Shown here: one piece after another, positions 14,689 to 18,105 of the stretch
Numbering within the stretch: position 1 is the stretch's first letter
Layout: each line of letters begins with the position of its first letter
Assembly: GCA_030681615.1 (NCBI GenBank)
Contig: JAUXSA010000177.1
Span: 1 to 39,027, forward strand
Length of the DNA stretch: 39,027 nt
Direction: 5' to 3'
DNA from: Bacteroidota bacterium
GTDB taxonomy: Bacteria; Bacteroidota; Bacteroidia; B-17B0; Aurantibacillaceae
Translations under genes and position numbers: made by a program
The notes under the pieces: generated by a model
Database searches by the model: none
The model's input: only the letters and a program-made list of their open reading frames with translations
What the model was told of the DNA's origin: nothing

Positions 14689-15096
14689 TTAGGATTGCAG
14701 ATGATGTTTGGGATTATTAGAAAAAACTCTACGCTTCACTTCCGGTTTTTTTCCAAAATTTAAAAGTAAACCAACTTCAATTTCTGTAGCTTTCAAATAA
14801 TTTATCAATTGGAACTCATGTTCCTCACACAGACTTTCAGCTGCTTTTAACTCCACAATAATTAATTCATTTATCGCCAGATCAGCAAAATATTCTCCAA
14901 CTTCTTTATTCTCGTAAAATACTTTTATTCGCTTTTGTTTTTCAACTTGCATGCCTAATGCCTGAAGTTCAATGATCATAGCATTTTCATACACCTTCTC
15001 TAAAAAACCGTAACCGAGAGTGTTATACACTTTATAAAAGGCGATTATAATTTTTTCAGTGATATCTGAATGCTTATAATTATCTGCGCCTATCAT
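14689..15096 (-). CDS. GxxExxY family protein (PD-(D/E)xK-like)
   Basis: A 135-residue protein of the GxxExxY family, named for Gly30-x-x-Glu33-x-x-Tyr36 in GYGFLEKVYENAM. Asp72 (FADLAI) and Glu82-x-Lys84 (VELKA) complete a PD-(D/E)xK-type nuclease-like set, so a nuclease fold is probable but activity is unproven. The gene lies between two POT transporters on the same strand and has no functional link to them. It is flanked by short inverted TATCTGCG repeats, a pattern that suggests it arrived as a small mobile or repeat-associated unit. The ATG at 15096 begins MIGADNYKHSDITEKII; a longer start cannot be excluded but would run into the repeat. Confidence 0.8.
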   Translation of the reverse strand: MIGADNYKHSDITEKIIIAFYKVYNTLGYGFLEKVYENAMIIELQALGMQVEKQKRIKVFYENKEVGEYFADLAINELIIVELKAAESLCEEHEFQLINYLKATEIEVGLLLNFGKKPEVKRRVFSNNPKHHLQS

Positions 15097-16920: not shown

Positions 16921-17289
16921 TTAAGCTTTAACAGTTTTGTTTTGAATTTTTTCGCGGATACGTGCTGCTTTACCAGTAAGATCGCGTAAGTAAAATAATT
17001 TAGCACGACGAACGATACCTACTTTATTTACTTCAATTTTCTCGATAAAAGGAGAAGTTATTGGGAAGATACGCTCTACACCAACTCCGTTACTGATCTT
17101 ACGAACTGTAAAAGATGCTGTAGCTGTTTCGTTCTTGCGTTGAATTACAACACCATTAAATTGCTGAACACGTTCTTTTTCACCCTCTTTAATTTTATAA
17201 GATACAGTGATAGTATCGCCTGCTTTGAAGTTTGGATGTTTAACTTCGTTAGTAATTTGTTTTTTTACGTAGTCTAATAAAAGGCTCAT
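16921..17289 (-). CDS. rplS: 50S ribosomal protein L19
   Basis: A 122-residue ribosomal protein of the large subunit, located at the 30S-50S interface. It is recognised from [20 protein letters not shown], the hallmark [28 protein letters not shown] and [21 protein letters not shown]; the length fits the family. In many bacteria rplS follows rpsP-rimM-trmD, but here it stands alone with its own promoter and a strong terminator, as is usual in Bacteroidota. Its ~67-base leader may contain an autoregulatory structure. The adjacent tRNA-derived region shares the intergenic space upstream. Confidence 0.97.
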
Positions 17290-17369
17290 TTTGTAAAATA
17301 TTTAAGTTATTATTTCCAGCATACTTTACCCAGTGTAAACAGCGGCTTTGAAATAGGGACGCAAATATA
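17290..17369 (-). promoter_or_regulatory. rplS -7 box and leader
   Basis: TATATTTG on the minus strand (17369-17362) is a perfect -7 box; the -33 element is poor. The resulting leader of about 67 bases contains a small hairpin, TTTAC/GTAAA with a five-base loop (17325-17339). A ribosomal leader that binds L19 is possible, but only this short stem is visible. Confidence 0.4.
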
Positions 17370-17412
17370 TAAATAAATTGTTTAAAAACCGCAAAAAGAC
17401 GGCACATTTTTA

Positions 17413-17420
17413 TAATTTTG
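17413..17420 (+). promoter_or_regulatory. -7 box ahead of the tRNA-leader copy
   Basis: TAATTTTG is a perfect TAnnTTTG box on the plus strand, about 35 bases upstream of the duplicated tRNA leader. No TTTG lies 19 bases upstream. If active, it would transcribe through the partial tRNA toward the GIY-YIG gene. Confidence 0.35.
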
Positions 17421-17454
17421 CCCTCAAATATAGCCTTTTTGGCTGTAAACCCTG

Positions 17455-17486
17455 GCGTTTGTTCCGACTGTTGCCGGAAAGTATAC
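17455..17486 (+). repeat. diverged copy of the tRNA-Leu 5' leader
   Basis: These 32 bases match 17948-17979, just upstream of the intact tRNA-Leu, at 26 of 32 positions. Both copies hold a stem around a TGTT loop: CTGGT/ACCAG at the tRNA and CCGAC/GCCGG here. Four of the six differences form two compensatory pairs (T:A to C:G). Confidence 0.65.
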
Positions 17487-17497
17487 TAAAACCCTAT

Positions 17498-17603
17498 ATA
17501 ATGTCGTACTGAGCTTGTCGAAGTATGCCCAGGTGTTGGTCCCGATAGCTATCGGGAGGTATCAAGTACGCTTGAGGTTTTATCGAACTGAAAAAGACAT
17601 TAT
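17498..17603. repeat. 106-bp element with inverted ends enclosing a partial tRNA-Leu
   Basis: ATAATGTC (17498-17505) and GACATTAT (17596-17603) are perfect inverted repeats. Just inside them ACTGAGCTTGTCGAAG and TTATCGAACTG are imperfectly complementary, a motif type seen in dispersed intergenic repeats of Bacteroidota. The interior holds the tRNA-Leu 5' fragment and an 18-base perfect palindrome. The right end runs into the promoter of the GIY-YIG gene. Confidence 0.55.
17527..17578 (+). pseudogene. partial tRNA-Leu(GAG) copy interrupted by a palindrome
   Basis: GCCCAGGTGTTGG (17527-17539) and the segment 17558-17578, ending CAAGTACGCTTGAGGT, reproduce the 5' half of the tRNA-Leu gene at 17982 through the anticodon loop, with one base missing. 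In place of the D-loop AAT there is the palindrome TCCCGATAGCTATCGGGA (17540-17557). The 3' half is absent, so no functional tRNA can form. Confidence 0.75.
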
Positions 17604-17608
17604 TTTTG
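17578..17608 (+). promoter_or_regulatory. promoter of the GIY-YIG gene
   Basis: TTTT (17578-17581), a 19-base spacer and a perfect -7 box TATTTTTG (17601-17608). The -33 box starts at the last base of the partial tRNA and the -7 box overlaps the inverted-repeat end. The ATG at 17616 would be at or next to the transcription start, so the mRNA is probably leaderless. Confidence 0.55.
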
Positions 17609-17615
17609 TTTAATA

Positions 17616-17900
17616 ATGGCATCAGTATACATTCTATTTTCTCCTAAACTTAATAAATTCTATGTTGGAAGTTGCCTTGATTTGGAACAAAGGCTGTTAG
17701 ATCATAAAAACAAGATCTATTCAAATTCGTACACTAAAATAACCGATGATTGGGAGTTATATTCTGAAATAAGTGGATTAGATGGCCTGATAGCAAGAAA
17801 AATAGAGACACATATCAAGTCCATGAAATCAAAAAAATATATAGAAAATTTAAAGAAATATCCGGAAATGAGACTGAAATTAATTTCTAAATTTTCTTAA
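17616..17900 (+). CDS. small GIY-YIG nuclease-domain protein
   Basis: A 94-residue stand-alone GIY-YIG domain. The family core is recognisable as VYILFS followed ten residues later by FYVGSC (the G-I-Y and Y-I-G elements), then the helix LEQRLLDHKNKI and KIETHIKSMKSKKYIE in place of the catalytic helix. The arginine of the usual R-x-x-x-H is represented by the LEQRLLDH segment, and Glu64 in ARKIETHIK fits the metal-binding glutamate. These small proteins are abundant in Bacteroidota and resemble the UvrC N-terminal nuclease, but their role is not established. Here the gene lies between a partial and an intact tRNA-Leu, both preceded by the same leader hairpin, which suggests it entered together with the duplication. 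Confidence 0.75.
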   Translation: MASVYILFSPKLNKFYVGSCLDLEQRLLDHKNKIYSNSYTKITDDWELYSEISGLDGLIARKIETHIKSMKSKKYIENLKKYPEMRLKLISKFS

Positions 17901-17928
17901 GGCTGATTATTAAACATTAAAAAAATTG

Positions 17929-17936
17929 CATCTTTG
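17929..17936 (+). promoter_or_regulatory. -7 box of the tRNA-Leu gene
   Basis: CATCTTTG differs from TAnnTTTG at its first base only. Transcription would start near 17942 and give a leader of about 40 bases that includes the duplicated hairpin. No good -33 box is seen. Confidence 0.35.
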
Positions 17937-17947
17937 CACTAGCTTAA

Positions 17948-17979
17948 GTGTTTGTTCTGGTTGTTACCAGAAAGTATAC
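17948..17979 (+). repeat. tRNA-Leu 5' leader with hairpin (parent copy)
   Basis: It contains CTGGT-TGTT-ACCAG, a perfect 5-bp stem. The segment recurs in diverged form at 17455-17486. It ends two bases before the tRNA. Confidence 0.65.
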
Positions 17980-17981
17980 AT

Positions 17982-18062
17982 GCCCAGGTGTTGGAATGGT
18001 ATACAAGTACGCTTGAGGTGCGTATGCCGCAAGGTGTGGGAGTTCGAGTCTCCTCCTGGGTA
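17982..18062 (+). tRNA. tRNA-Leu (anticodon GAG)
   Basis: An 81-base cloverleaf. The acceptor GCCCAGG pairs with CCTGGGT (one G.U), with discriminator A at 18062. The anticodon stem TACGC/GCGTA encloses the loop TTGAGGT with anticodon GAG, reading CUC and CUU leucine codons. A long variable arm (GCC-GCAA-GGT) marks a class II tRNA, and the T arm is GGGAG-TTCGAGT-CTCCT. The sequence closely follows E. coli tRNA-Leu(GAG). CCA is not encoded. A terminator follows directly. Confidence 0.95.
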
Positions 18063-18072
18063 CAAATAAATT

Positions 18073-18105
18073 AAAGGGTTAAAGCTATTGCTTTGACCCT
18101 TTTTT
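18073..18105 (+). terminator. terminator of the tRNA-Leu gene
   Basis: AAAGGGTTAAAGC (18073-18085) pairs with GCTTTGACCCTTT (18090-18102), with one G.U pair and a TATT loop, followed by TTT. The stem of 13 bp plus the T-run is a standard rho-independent terminator. Confidence 0.88.

Follow-up and report, generated by a model that had tools for sequence, protein, structure and literature searches.

A small GIY-YIG nuclease gene between a displaced half and an intact copy of tRNA-Leu(GAG) in a Bacteroidota genome: a putative minimal tRNA-invading element

tRNA genes are classic landing sites of mobile DNA, and the tRNA-targeting elements known to us employ integrases and extend over many kilobases. 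Short dispersed palindromes can be tied to a small nuclease gene, as in the case of REP palindromes and the RAYT transposases, which are HUH tyrosine transposases. Ultra-short hairpins have also spread through mitochondrial genomes as double-hairpin or repetitive hairpin elements. SegB of phages T4 and T6 is a free-standing GIY-YIG homing endonuclease (PMC2988022). Its cuts fall inside tRNA genes and lead to tandem amplification of tRNA-segB segments, without an isotype preference noted by the authors (PMC13096335). In fungal mitochondria, mORFs have been described in Allomyces atp6 and in Glomus atp6, atp9, cox2, and nad3; here the endonuclease gene brings along a substitute gene end, which displaces the native one while the host gene remains functional (PMC3630166).

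The locus analysed here (positions 17455-18063) contains a 94-aa GIY-YIG gene between a displaced 5' half-tRNA and an intact tRNA-Leu(GAG). It is part of the window, the whole analysed stretch of 39,027 nucleotides of a Bacteroidota bacterium (assembly GCA_030681615.1, contig JAUXSA010000177.1); below, genomes are labelled G and loci L. Like REP/RAYT, it links short dispersed palindromes to a small nuclease gene, but the adjoining gene is of the GIY-YIG type, there are only 1-27 exact copies, and the hairpin replaces tRNA loop bases. The mitochondrial hairpin elements share the property of being ultra-short and spreading but belong to organelles, not bacteria. Unlike integrative elements with a tRNA attachment site, the window element has no integrase gene, no other ORF of at least 80 aa being present from the displaced half to the intact tRNA. 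With SegB it has in common a small GIY-YIG gene beside tRNA genes, but SegB genes are phage genes, whereas those described here reside on bacterial chromosomes without a phage match, form isotype-bound subfamilies, lie on the tRNA strand, and are accompanied by hairpin-bearing displaced halves. In our own reading, the SegB motif RAWTSGAAC is similar to the tRNA T-loop when taken as its reverse complement, GTTCSAWTY, and the T-loop hairpins found here mostly follow TTCG; the main text of PMC13096335 contains neither "palindrom" nor "hairpin". As in the mORFs, a replacement end is supplied, the native end is displaced, and the target gene is kept working, but the mORFs, according to the part of that source available, concern carboxy-terminal ends of organelle protein genes and larger ORFs, and no loop-to-hairpin swap was found there. 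The features of the locus are as follows.

17287-17456, forward strand: rplS-tRNA-Leu intergenic region in its native state, including the putative native promoter (17287-17486 aligned to the G006 empty site: 186 identities in 200 positions)
17457-17486, forward strand: displaced native leader with a hairpin (83% identical to the leader at 17950-17979; collinear with G006)
17487-17524, forward strand: 38-nt insert with the dispersed repeat CTGAGCTTGTCGAAG (17509-17523), located between the leader and the tRNA fragment; not present in G006
17527-17539, forward strand: displaced tRNA-Leu(GAG), positions 1-13 (100% identical to the intact copy)
17540-17557, forward strand: 18-nt palindrome (hairpin) TCCCGATAGCTATCGGGA in the D-loop, replacing AAT
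17558-17578, forward strand: displaced tRNA-Leu(GAG), approximately positions 17-38 (one base fewer than in the intact copy)
17616-17900, forward strand: GIY-YIG nuclease gene, 94 aa (PF01541)
17920-17948, forward strand: second promoter block AAAAAATTGCATCTTTGCACTAGCTTAAG, 5' of the intact tRNA (copies in other genomes)
17950-17979, forward strand: second leader with a hairpin, repeating the first leader
17982-18063, forward strand: intact tRNA-Leu(GAG) (ARAGORN)
18073-18105, forward strand: terminator-like hairpin and T-run, 3' of the tRNA (read from the sequence)

The sequence-only reading of this DNA had placed the GIY-YIG gene after a partial and before an intact tRNA-Leu(GAG), and repeats, ARAGORN, and PF01541 agree with this. 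According to ARAGORN, the intact copy is the only tRNA of the window. The same reading proposed that the 5' half of the tRNA is duplicated ahead of the gene, as borne out by two collinear pieces with 100% identity: ATGCCCAGGTGTTGG (15 nt, at 17525 and 17980) and CAAGTACGCTTGAGGT (16 nt, at 17563 and 18004). Its claim of a duplicated leader holds, the two leaders being 83% identical over 30 nt (17457-17486 and 17950-17979); the blocks upstream of them are not one duplicated promoter, the first being native and the second different. The leader repeat and both tRNA pieces are collinear, which is far above chance. The native promoter is presumably TATAATTTTG at 17411-17420, judging from the Bacteroidota consensus. 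Positions 17540-17557, which interrupt the partial tRNA, form a perfect 18-nt palindrome where the intact copy has AAT in its D-loop, a feature that the sequence-only reading had not noticed. The same swap was found in L159, L161, and L010. The hairpin changes the displaced half, yet an unaltered tRNA adjoins it. The repeat CTGAGCTTGTCGAAG is a second dispersed one, present once in the own genome and found in 24 of 38 genomes.

A DNA query comprising the leader and the tRNA had matches, some of them partial, in 26 of 41 genomes. tRNA-Leu(GAG) loci lacking the GIY-YIG gene, which the sequence-only reading had proposed to look for in relatives, were found in eight of these 41 genomes (G005, G006, G008, G009, G010, G014, G015, and G017). 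In these empty sites, the tRNA is divergent from rplS at a spacing of 143-232 bp, versus 693 bp in the window. The GIY-YIG gene adjoins rplS in G012, as in the window, and alleles with and without the gene both exist at the same rplS site, which meets a criterion for a free-standing homing endonuclease. The spacing is 696-1385 bp in G001, G016, and G021, without a GIY-YIG match there, and in G019 rplS is located on the opposite side of the tRNA. From rplS through the first leader, the window is identical to the G006 empty site at 186 of 200 positions (93%), which indicates that the displaced half kept its native upstream region. Close copies of the second block AAAAAATTGCATCTTTGCACTAGCTTAAG precede tRNA-Leu in G012 (copy 2), G011, G007, and G001, and a more diverged copy was found in G030, while the block was not found in G006, G009, G010, or G017. 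Since the intact tRNA has a different block with copies elsewhere, the inserted DNA most likely carried a promoter, a leader, and a tRNA 5' part of its own, as far as comparison of sequences can tell. Counted against this is that the empty site of G015 has TTGCATCT in common with the second block. Both leader blocks are alike in L159 and nearly so in G030 and G011, and both terminators are alike in some downstream cases (L011, L014, and L021); these loci also fit local duplication. The like blocks of L159 are as a later tandem round would give and are no proof of insertion. In G007, the GIY-YIG gene is truncated and the second block is kept, and G001 keeps the block without a GIY-YIG match at that place; we read both as scars, without a supporting test.

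The earlier suggestion, a small unit, mobile or homing, with a copied portion of its target tRNA, was supported, but the window is not a simple local duplication, since the block before the intact tRNA differs from the native block kept by the displaced half. Comparison with relatives thus demonstrates insertion into the window, displacement of the old half, and retention of an intact tRNA, insofar as such events can be read from present-day alleles. The search for further tRNA-associated copies in the same genome revealed a second case at tRNA-Val, where the GIY-YIG gene lies between hairpin-bearing fragments in the order hairpin-bearing tRNA-Val fragment, intact tRNA-Val, GIY-YIG gene, and hairpin-bearing tRNA-Val 3' fragment. 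Both empty sites and another copy of this kind exist, and the absence of both would have refuted the idea.

Protein searches gave matches in 33 of 60 genomes, including the own one, and a tRNA was present in 21 of 29 loci of relatives. Named genome records, limited to the best 80 of 181 stretches, provided 79 loci. According to the record titles, all of these belong to Bacteroidota except one from Algicola sp., which taxonomy places in Pseudomonadota. Within this set from the best 80 of 181 stretches, ARAGORN found a tRNA at a distance of up to 800 bp in 64 of 79 loci. The nearest tRNA was on the GIY-YIG strand in all 64 cases, upstream in 46 and downstream in 18, and was of the Asn (26), Leu (25), or Met (13) isotype; L195 had one additional tRNA on the opposite strand. 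Among the other 15 loci of the same set, seven had a hairpin-bearing tRNA fragment and eight had neither. The rule of a shared strand is therefore established by comparison for the loci considered. As a control, we used the GxxExxY nuclease gene of the same window, for which a tRNA was located within about 800 bp in none of 30 loci. Control distances were taken from the middle of the locus, so that loci at contig ends were only roughly centred, and one control locus had a tRNA further off. This GxxExxY gene, of the PD-(D/E)XK type (window 14689-15096), had at least one relative in 48 of 60 genomes.

Counts of tRNA flanks, multiple GIY-YIG genes, loop centres, and junctions refer to 99 loci, the 79 from named records (best 80 of 181 stretches) and 20 more. 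The latter were taken from 35 distinct GIY-YIG loci (L001-L036, with the window counted once), leaving out L001, L003-L005, L008, L009, L011, L019, L020, L029-L032, L035, and L036, of which L008, L009, and L011 recur as L160, L161, and L168. This set still holds the same-place pairs L012/L176 and L013/L228 and the near-copies L168/L169. A tree was built from 96 of the 99 proteins, three shorter than 70 aa being left out, and rests on few columns; seven of its rows without a nearby intact tRNA were labelled with the isotype of the hairpin-bearing fragment. The isotype label required 20 changes on this tree versus a mean of 53.4 after shuffling, and none of 200 shuffles gave so low a value. All 29 Leu rows, along with two unlabelled ones, fell into one starred branch, whose hosts are labelled as Flavobacteriaceae, Chitinophagaceae, Sphingobacteriaceae, Cytophagaceae, and other groups. 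Asn (11 changes) and Met (8 changes) were clustered without forming single groups, and near-copies raise the clustering. The inferred phylogeny of the GIY-YIG proteins thus tracks the tRNA isotype, and comparison demonstrates isotype specificity within this tree. The side of insertion as a lineage property was considered and dropped: the tree needs 10 side changes versus 12 isotype changes without unlabelled rows, which we do not interpret.

More than one GIY-YIG match was found in 20 of 99 loci, always on the same strand. The arrays included five copies in L179, three with 96%-100% identity in L226, and two identical ones in each of L174 and L184, and hairpins were spaced from unit to unit by 361-447 bp (L174, L179, L184, L200, L215, and L226). 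Such near-identical neighbours allow tandem growth to be recognized by comparison. Tandem arrays of tRNA 5' fragments (69-75 bp) with a D-loop hairpin also occur for tRNA-Cys (L096, 1009-1162), tRNA-Val (L053, 1500-1665), and tRNA-Leu (L107, 266-356), with no room for a GIY-YIG gene between the fragments. No match to the GIY-YIG protein was found on 72,556 plasmid or 50,697 phage records, nor on viral contigs, and hence no vector was seen.

The ORF at 17616-17900 matched PF01541 with an E-value of 1.1e-7 and 32.5 bits, above the cut-off of 22.6. The score for TIGR01453 (group I intron endonuclease), 31 bits, was below the cut-off of 56.05, and the protein was not assigned to this family. Residues Y5, Y16, G18, R26, H30, and E64 are invariant in sets of 19 and 37 sequences; we take Y5, Y16, R26, and E64 to be the catalytic Tyr, Tyr, Arg, and Glu of the GIY-YIG superfamily. 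The structure model had a pLDDT of 95.6, and its top Foldseek matches were UPF0213, Slx1, and the I-TevI catalytic domain (probability 0.94-1.00, none with E≤0.001). The PDB profile search retrieved UPF0213 (E-value 3.7e-7) and, weakly, SLX1 (0.01). An internal stop in the matched range was present in 4 of 99 loci. The dN/dS ratio was 0.05-0.08 in five pairs (L007-L158, L007-L159, L196-L202, L217-L219, and L172-L176), of which L007-L159 (dS 2.8) and L007-L158 (dS 1.2) are near saturation. Comparison of these genes demonstrates what appears to be purifying selection on the protein. Values for L002-L022 and L022-L023 are meaningless because the starts were unaligned, and the pairs L203-L221, L207-L211, and L007-L161 (saturated) and L214-L216 (no synonymous change) were not used. 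A role as a defence system was considered and rejected, there being no PADLOC match; PHROG gave no match either.

Within 1 kb of the 99 GIY-YIG genes, 781 hairpins were found, and 105 of them had tRNA sequence on both sides (9 nt each, with at most one mismatch), compared with two in the control with reversed tRNAs. Such tRNA-flanked hairpins were present in 74 of 99 loci. The hairpin of the window is not among the 105, since the missing base beside it breaks the 9-nt match. In 98 of 105 cases, the centre of the hairpin was located in a tRNA loop. When each tRNA and site were counted once, this was the case for 34 of 41, while loops account for 0.52 of inner positions; several sites recur by descent, so that they are not independent events. 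Exact mapping was possible in 84 of 105 cases: 78 hairpins were 18 nt long, 50 replaced 3 nt (mostly AAT, GTT, ATT, AGT, or ACC), and 26 replaced 5 nt (mostly ATAAT or GGTCC). The 3-nt swaps were mostly found in the D- or T-loop, those in the T-loop mostly directly after TTCG, and the 5-nt swaps in the anticodon or variable loop. The core CCGA...TCGG was constant in 18 variants of 18 nt, and outer pairs co-varied, pairing being a condition of the search. In the tandem locus L009 (the same as L161), the hairpin replaces ACT in a loop of the tRNA leader. The exchange of loop bases for a hairpin is thus evident from comparison as a rule for tRNA fragments. Quasi-palindromic ends of the replaced bases were present, but partly as a product of the choice of alignment, and were not used.

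With no tRNA in between, the distance from the end of the GIY-YIG gene to the downstream hairpin had a median of 20 nt (8-110 nt, 45 cases), and that from the upstream hairpin to the gene start 50.5 nt (32-124 nt, 26 cases); about 10 of the 26 upstream cases look like 3' remnants of the unit before. Between the junction and the hairpin, the downstream cases had 8-49 nt of tRNA, with at most 21 nt in 40 of 45. Given these short distances, the hairpin tends to occupy the loop close to the break. The insertion point varies between loci.

The hairpin also occurs elsewhere. The pattern TCCCGAN{4,8}TCGGGA had 16 forward matches in the own genome versus one when read backwards, and the exact core was present in 18 of 38 genomes versus none backwards, with 1-27 exact copies per genome having any. 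Hairpins were found in 14 of 23 genomes with a match to the GIY-YIG protein versus 4 of 15 without, kinship not being controlled, and G008 had 27 exact copies and no match to the window protein. Among 95 unique copies with complete 40-nt flanks, GIY-YIG loci included, 24 were located in tRNA fragments by a looser 8-nt match, versus nine with reversed tRNAs. We considered and rejected the idea that the hairpin sits in every stem-loop: the excess of pairing between own over swapped flanks was weak (mean -7.0 versus -5.9, SD of means 0.29), and 10 of the 95 copies passed the 5% threshold and four the 1% threshold. The loop rule is therefore claimed for tRNA fragments only. Most dispersed copies are not explained by tRNA fragments or terminator loops.

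Hairpins were observed in the loop of terminator-like hairpins in L055 (about 1501), L046 (1501), L086 (1005), and L012 (upstream of the GIY-YIG gene). In the own genome, hairpin-bearing tRNA-Leu(CAA) fragments adjoin the intact gene (L064, 1501-1647), and there is a hairpin-bearing tRNA-Met fragment (L058, 1501); the contigs of both had no PF01541 match. Another small GIY-YIG gene of this genome (L001; 1315, 1501-1716) has a hairpin about 170 nt from the matched range, in a non-tRNA repeat.

Our preferred explanation, which is probably correct, is a minimal homing-type element of about 0.4 kb that invades tRNA genes and restores them. Such an element would comprise one GIY-YIG gene of about 94 aa and a copy of part of its target tRNA gene. 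It would enter the tRNA gene on the same strand, pushing the old half upstream, as in the window, or downstream, and would itself supply the displaced tRNA part, so that one intact tRNA would remain. In the displaced half, the loop near the break would be swapped for the hairpin of about 18 nt. Insertion with restoration of the tRNA is well supported at the level of sequence, while cutting by the nuclease, for which there are no cleavage data, and the role of the hairpin are inferred. The nuclease may cut an empty tRNA gene near its loops, and repair by homologous recombination from an element-bearing copy could then insert the unit. Homology between tRNA parts could let arrays grow, and the hairpin may mark the cut site and block re-cutting or reversal by recombination. 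For such cutting and growth SegB is a phage precedent, and the mORFs are one for a gene end supplied by the element. Counted against a homing-type element is that the intact tRNA beside the gene has the same sequence as the presumed target, and its protection is unexplained. So are the lack of a visible vector, the 15 of 79 loci (best 80 of 181 stretches) with no tRNA within 800 bp, the wide rplS spacing without a GIY-YIG match in G001, G016, and G021, the hairpins outside tRNAs, and the varying insertion point.

The hairpin could instead be the working site, an ultra-short REP-like mobile hairpin recognized and moved by the GIY-YIG nuclease as in RAYT/REP, with the tRNA-plus-GIY segment being a cassette between two sites. 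We hold this to be possible but rather doubtful. It is consistent with units flanked on both sides in L168 (the same as L011), L182, and the own tRNA-Val, with the excess of forward repeats over the genome (16 versus 1, and the exact core in 18 of 38 genomes versus none backwards), and with the higher frequency of hairpins in genomes having the GIY-YIG family (14 of 23 versus 4 of 15, without control for kinship). Hairpins in tRNA fragments without a GIY-YIG gene between or beside them (L053, L096, L107, and L064) and in terminator-like loops (L055, L046, and L086) would also fit. However, the 27 copies of G008 coexist with no match to the protein, the dispersed copies are mostly not in tRNA fragments (24 of 95, reversed control nine), their flanks show no more than a weak excess of pairing (10 of 95 under the 5% threshold), and the window has one hairpin, not two.

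Local duplication alone, by recombination or replication slippage around a resident gene with a housekeeping function, the hairpins being neutral decay, appears improbable. The like leaders or terminators of both copies in some loci and the tRNA-fragment arrays without a GIY-YIG gene between them would be expected from it, but the window has two unlike promoter blocks, the second with matches in other genomes, at least five isotypes are involved, the strand is the same in 64 of 64 cases (best 80 of 181 stretches), the tree follows the isotype, and the hairpin rule is nearly constant. Still less credible, in our view, is a system acting at the RNA level, resembling a toxin with an RNA antitoxin, in which the hairpin-bearing tRNA fragment is a mimic that regulates or neutralizes a tRNA-acting GIY-YIG enzyme. 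In its favour, the fragment shares its strand with the gene and perhaps also a transcript, it is similar to the tRNA next to it, and the hairpin arms stay paired despite base changes, pairing again being a search criterion; against this, the nearest PDB profile relatives are UPF0213 and the DNA nuclease SLX1, PADLOC gave no match, and the fragment may be upstream or downstream and covers different parts of the tRNA.

No description of such elements was found among the literature matches listed (full text of open-licence papers, without preprints), the two hairpin strings occurred in no open-licence full-text paper searched, and the accessible part of PMC1564403 contains nothing on such elements. 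A broader proposition, which we put forward only tentatively and with considerable doubt, is that Bacteroidota carry undescribed mobile DNA: tRNA-invading GIY-YIG units of about 0.4 kb linked with a mobile hairpin of 18 nt, which takes the place of 3 or 5 loop bases in tRNA arms, leader hairpins, and terminators. The nuclease would make or use the hairpins, and tRNA genes would be repeatedly broken, hairpin-capped, and rebuilt.

To our knowledge, units of about 0.4 kb with a single gene of about 94 aa are among the smallest self-coding mobile elements. On chromosomes from across a phylum, a nuclease gene of this size seems to be enough, and the target tRNA is preserved. These units would be a bacterial counterpart of phage SegB and the fungal mitochondrial mORFs and would provide a source of tRNA fragments in these genomes. 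They would also suggest how the loop of an RNA gene comes to be exchanged for a short hairpin, a route open to experiment, and the loop-to-hairpin rule would be simple to test.
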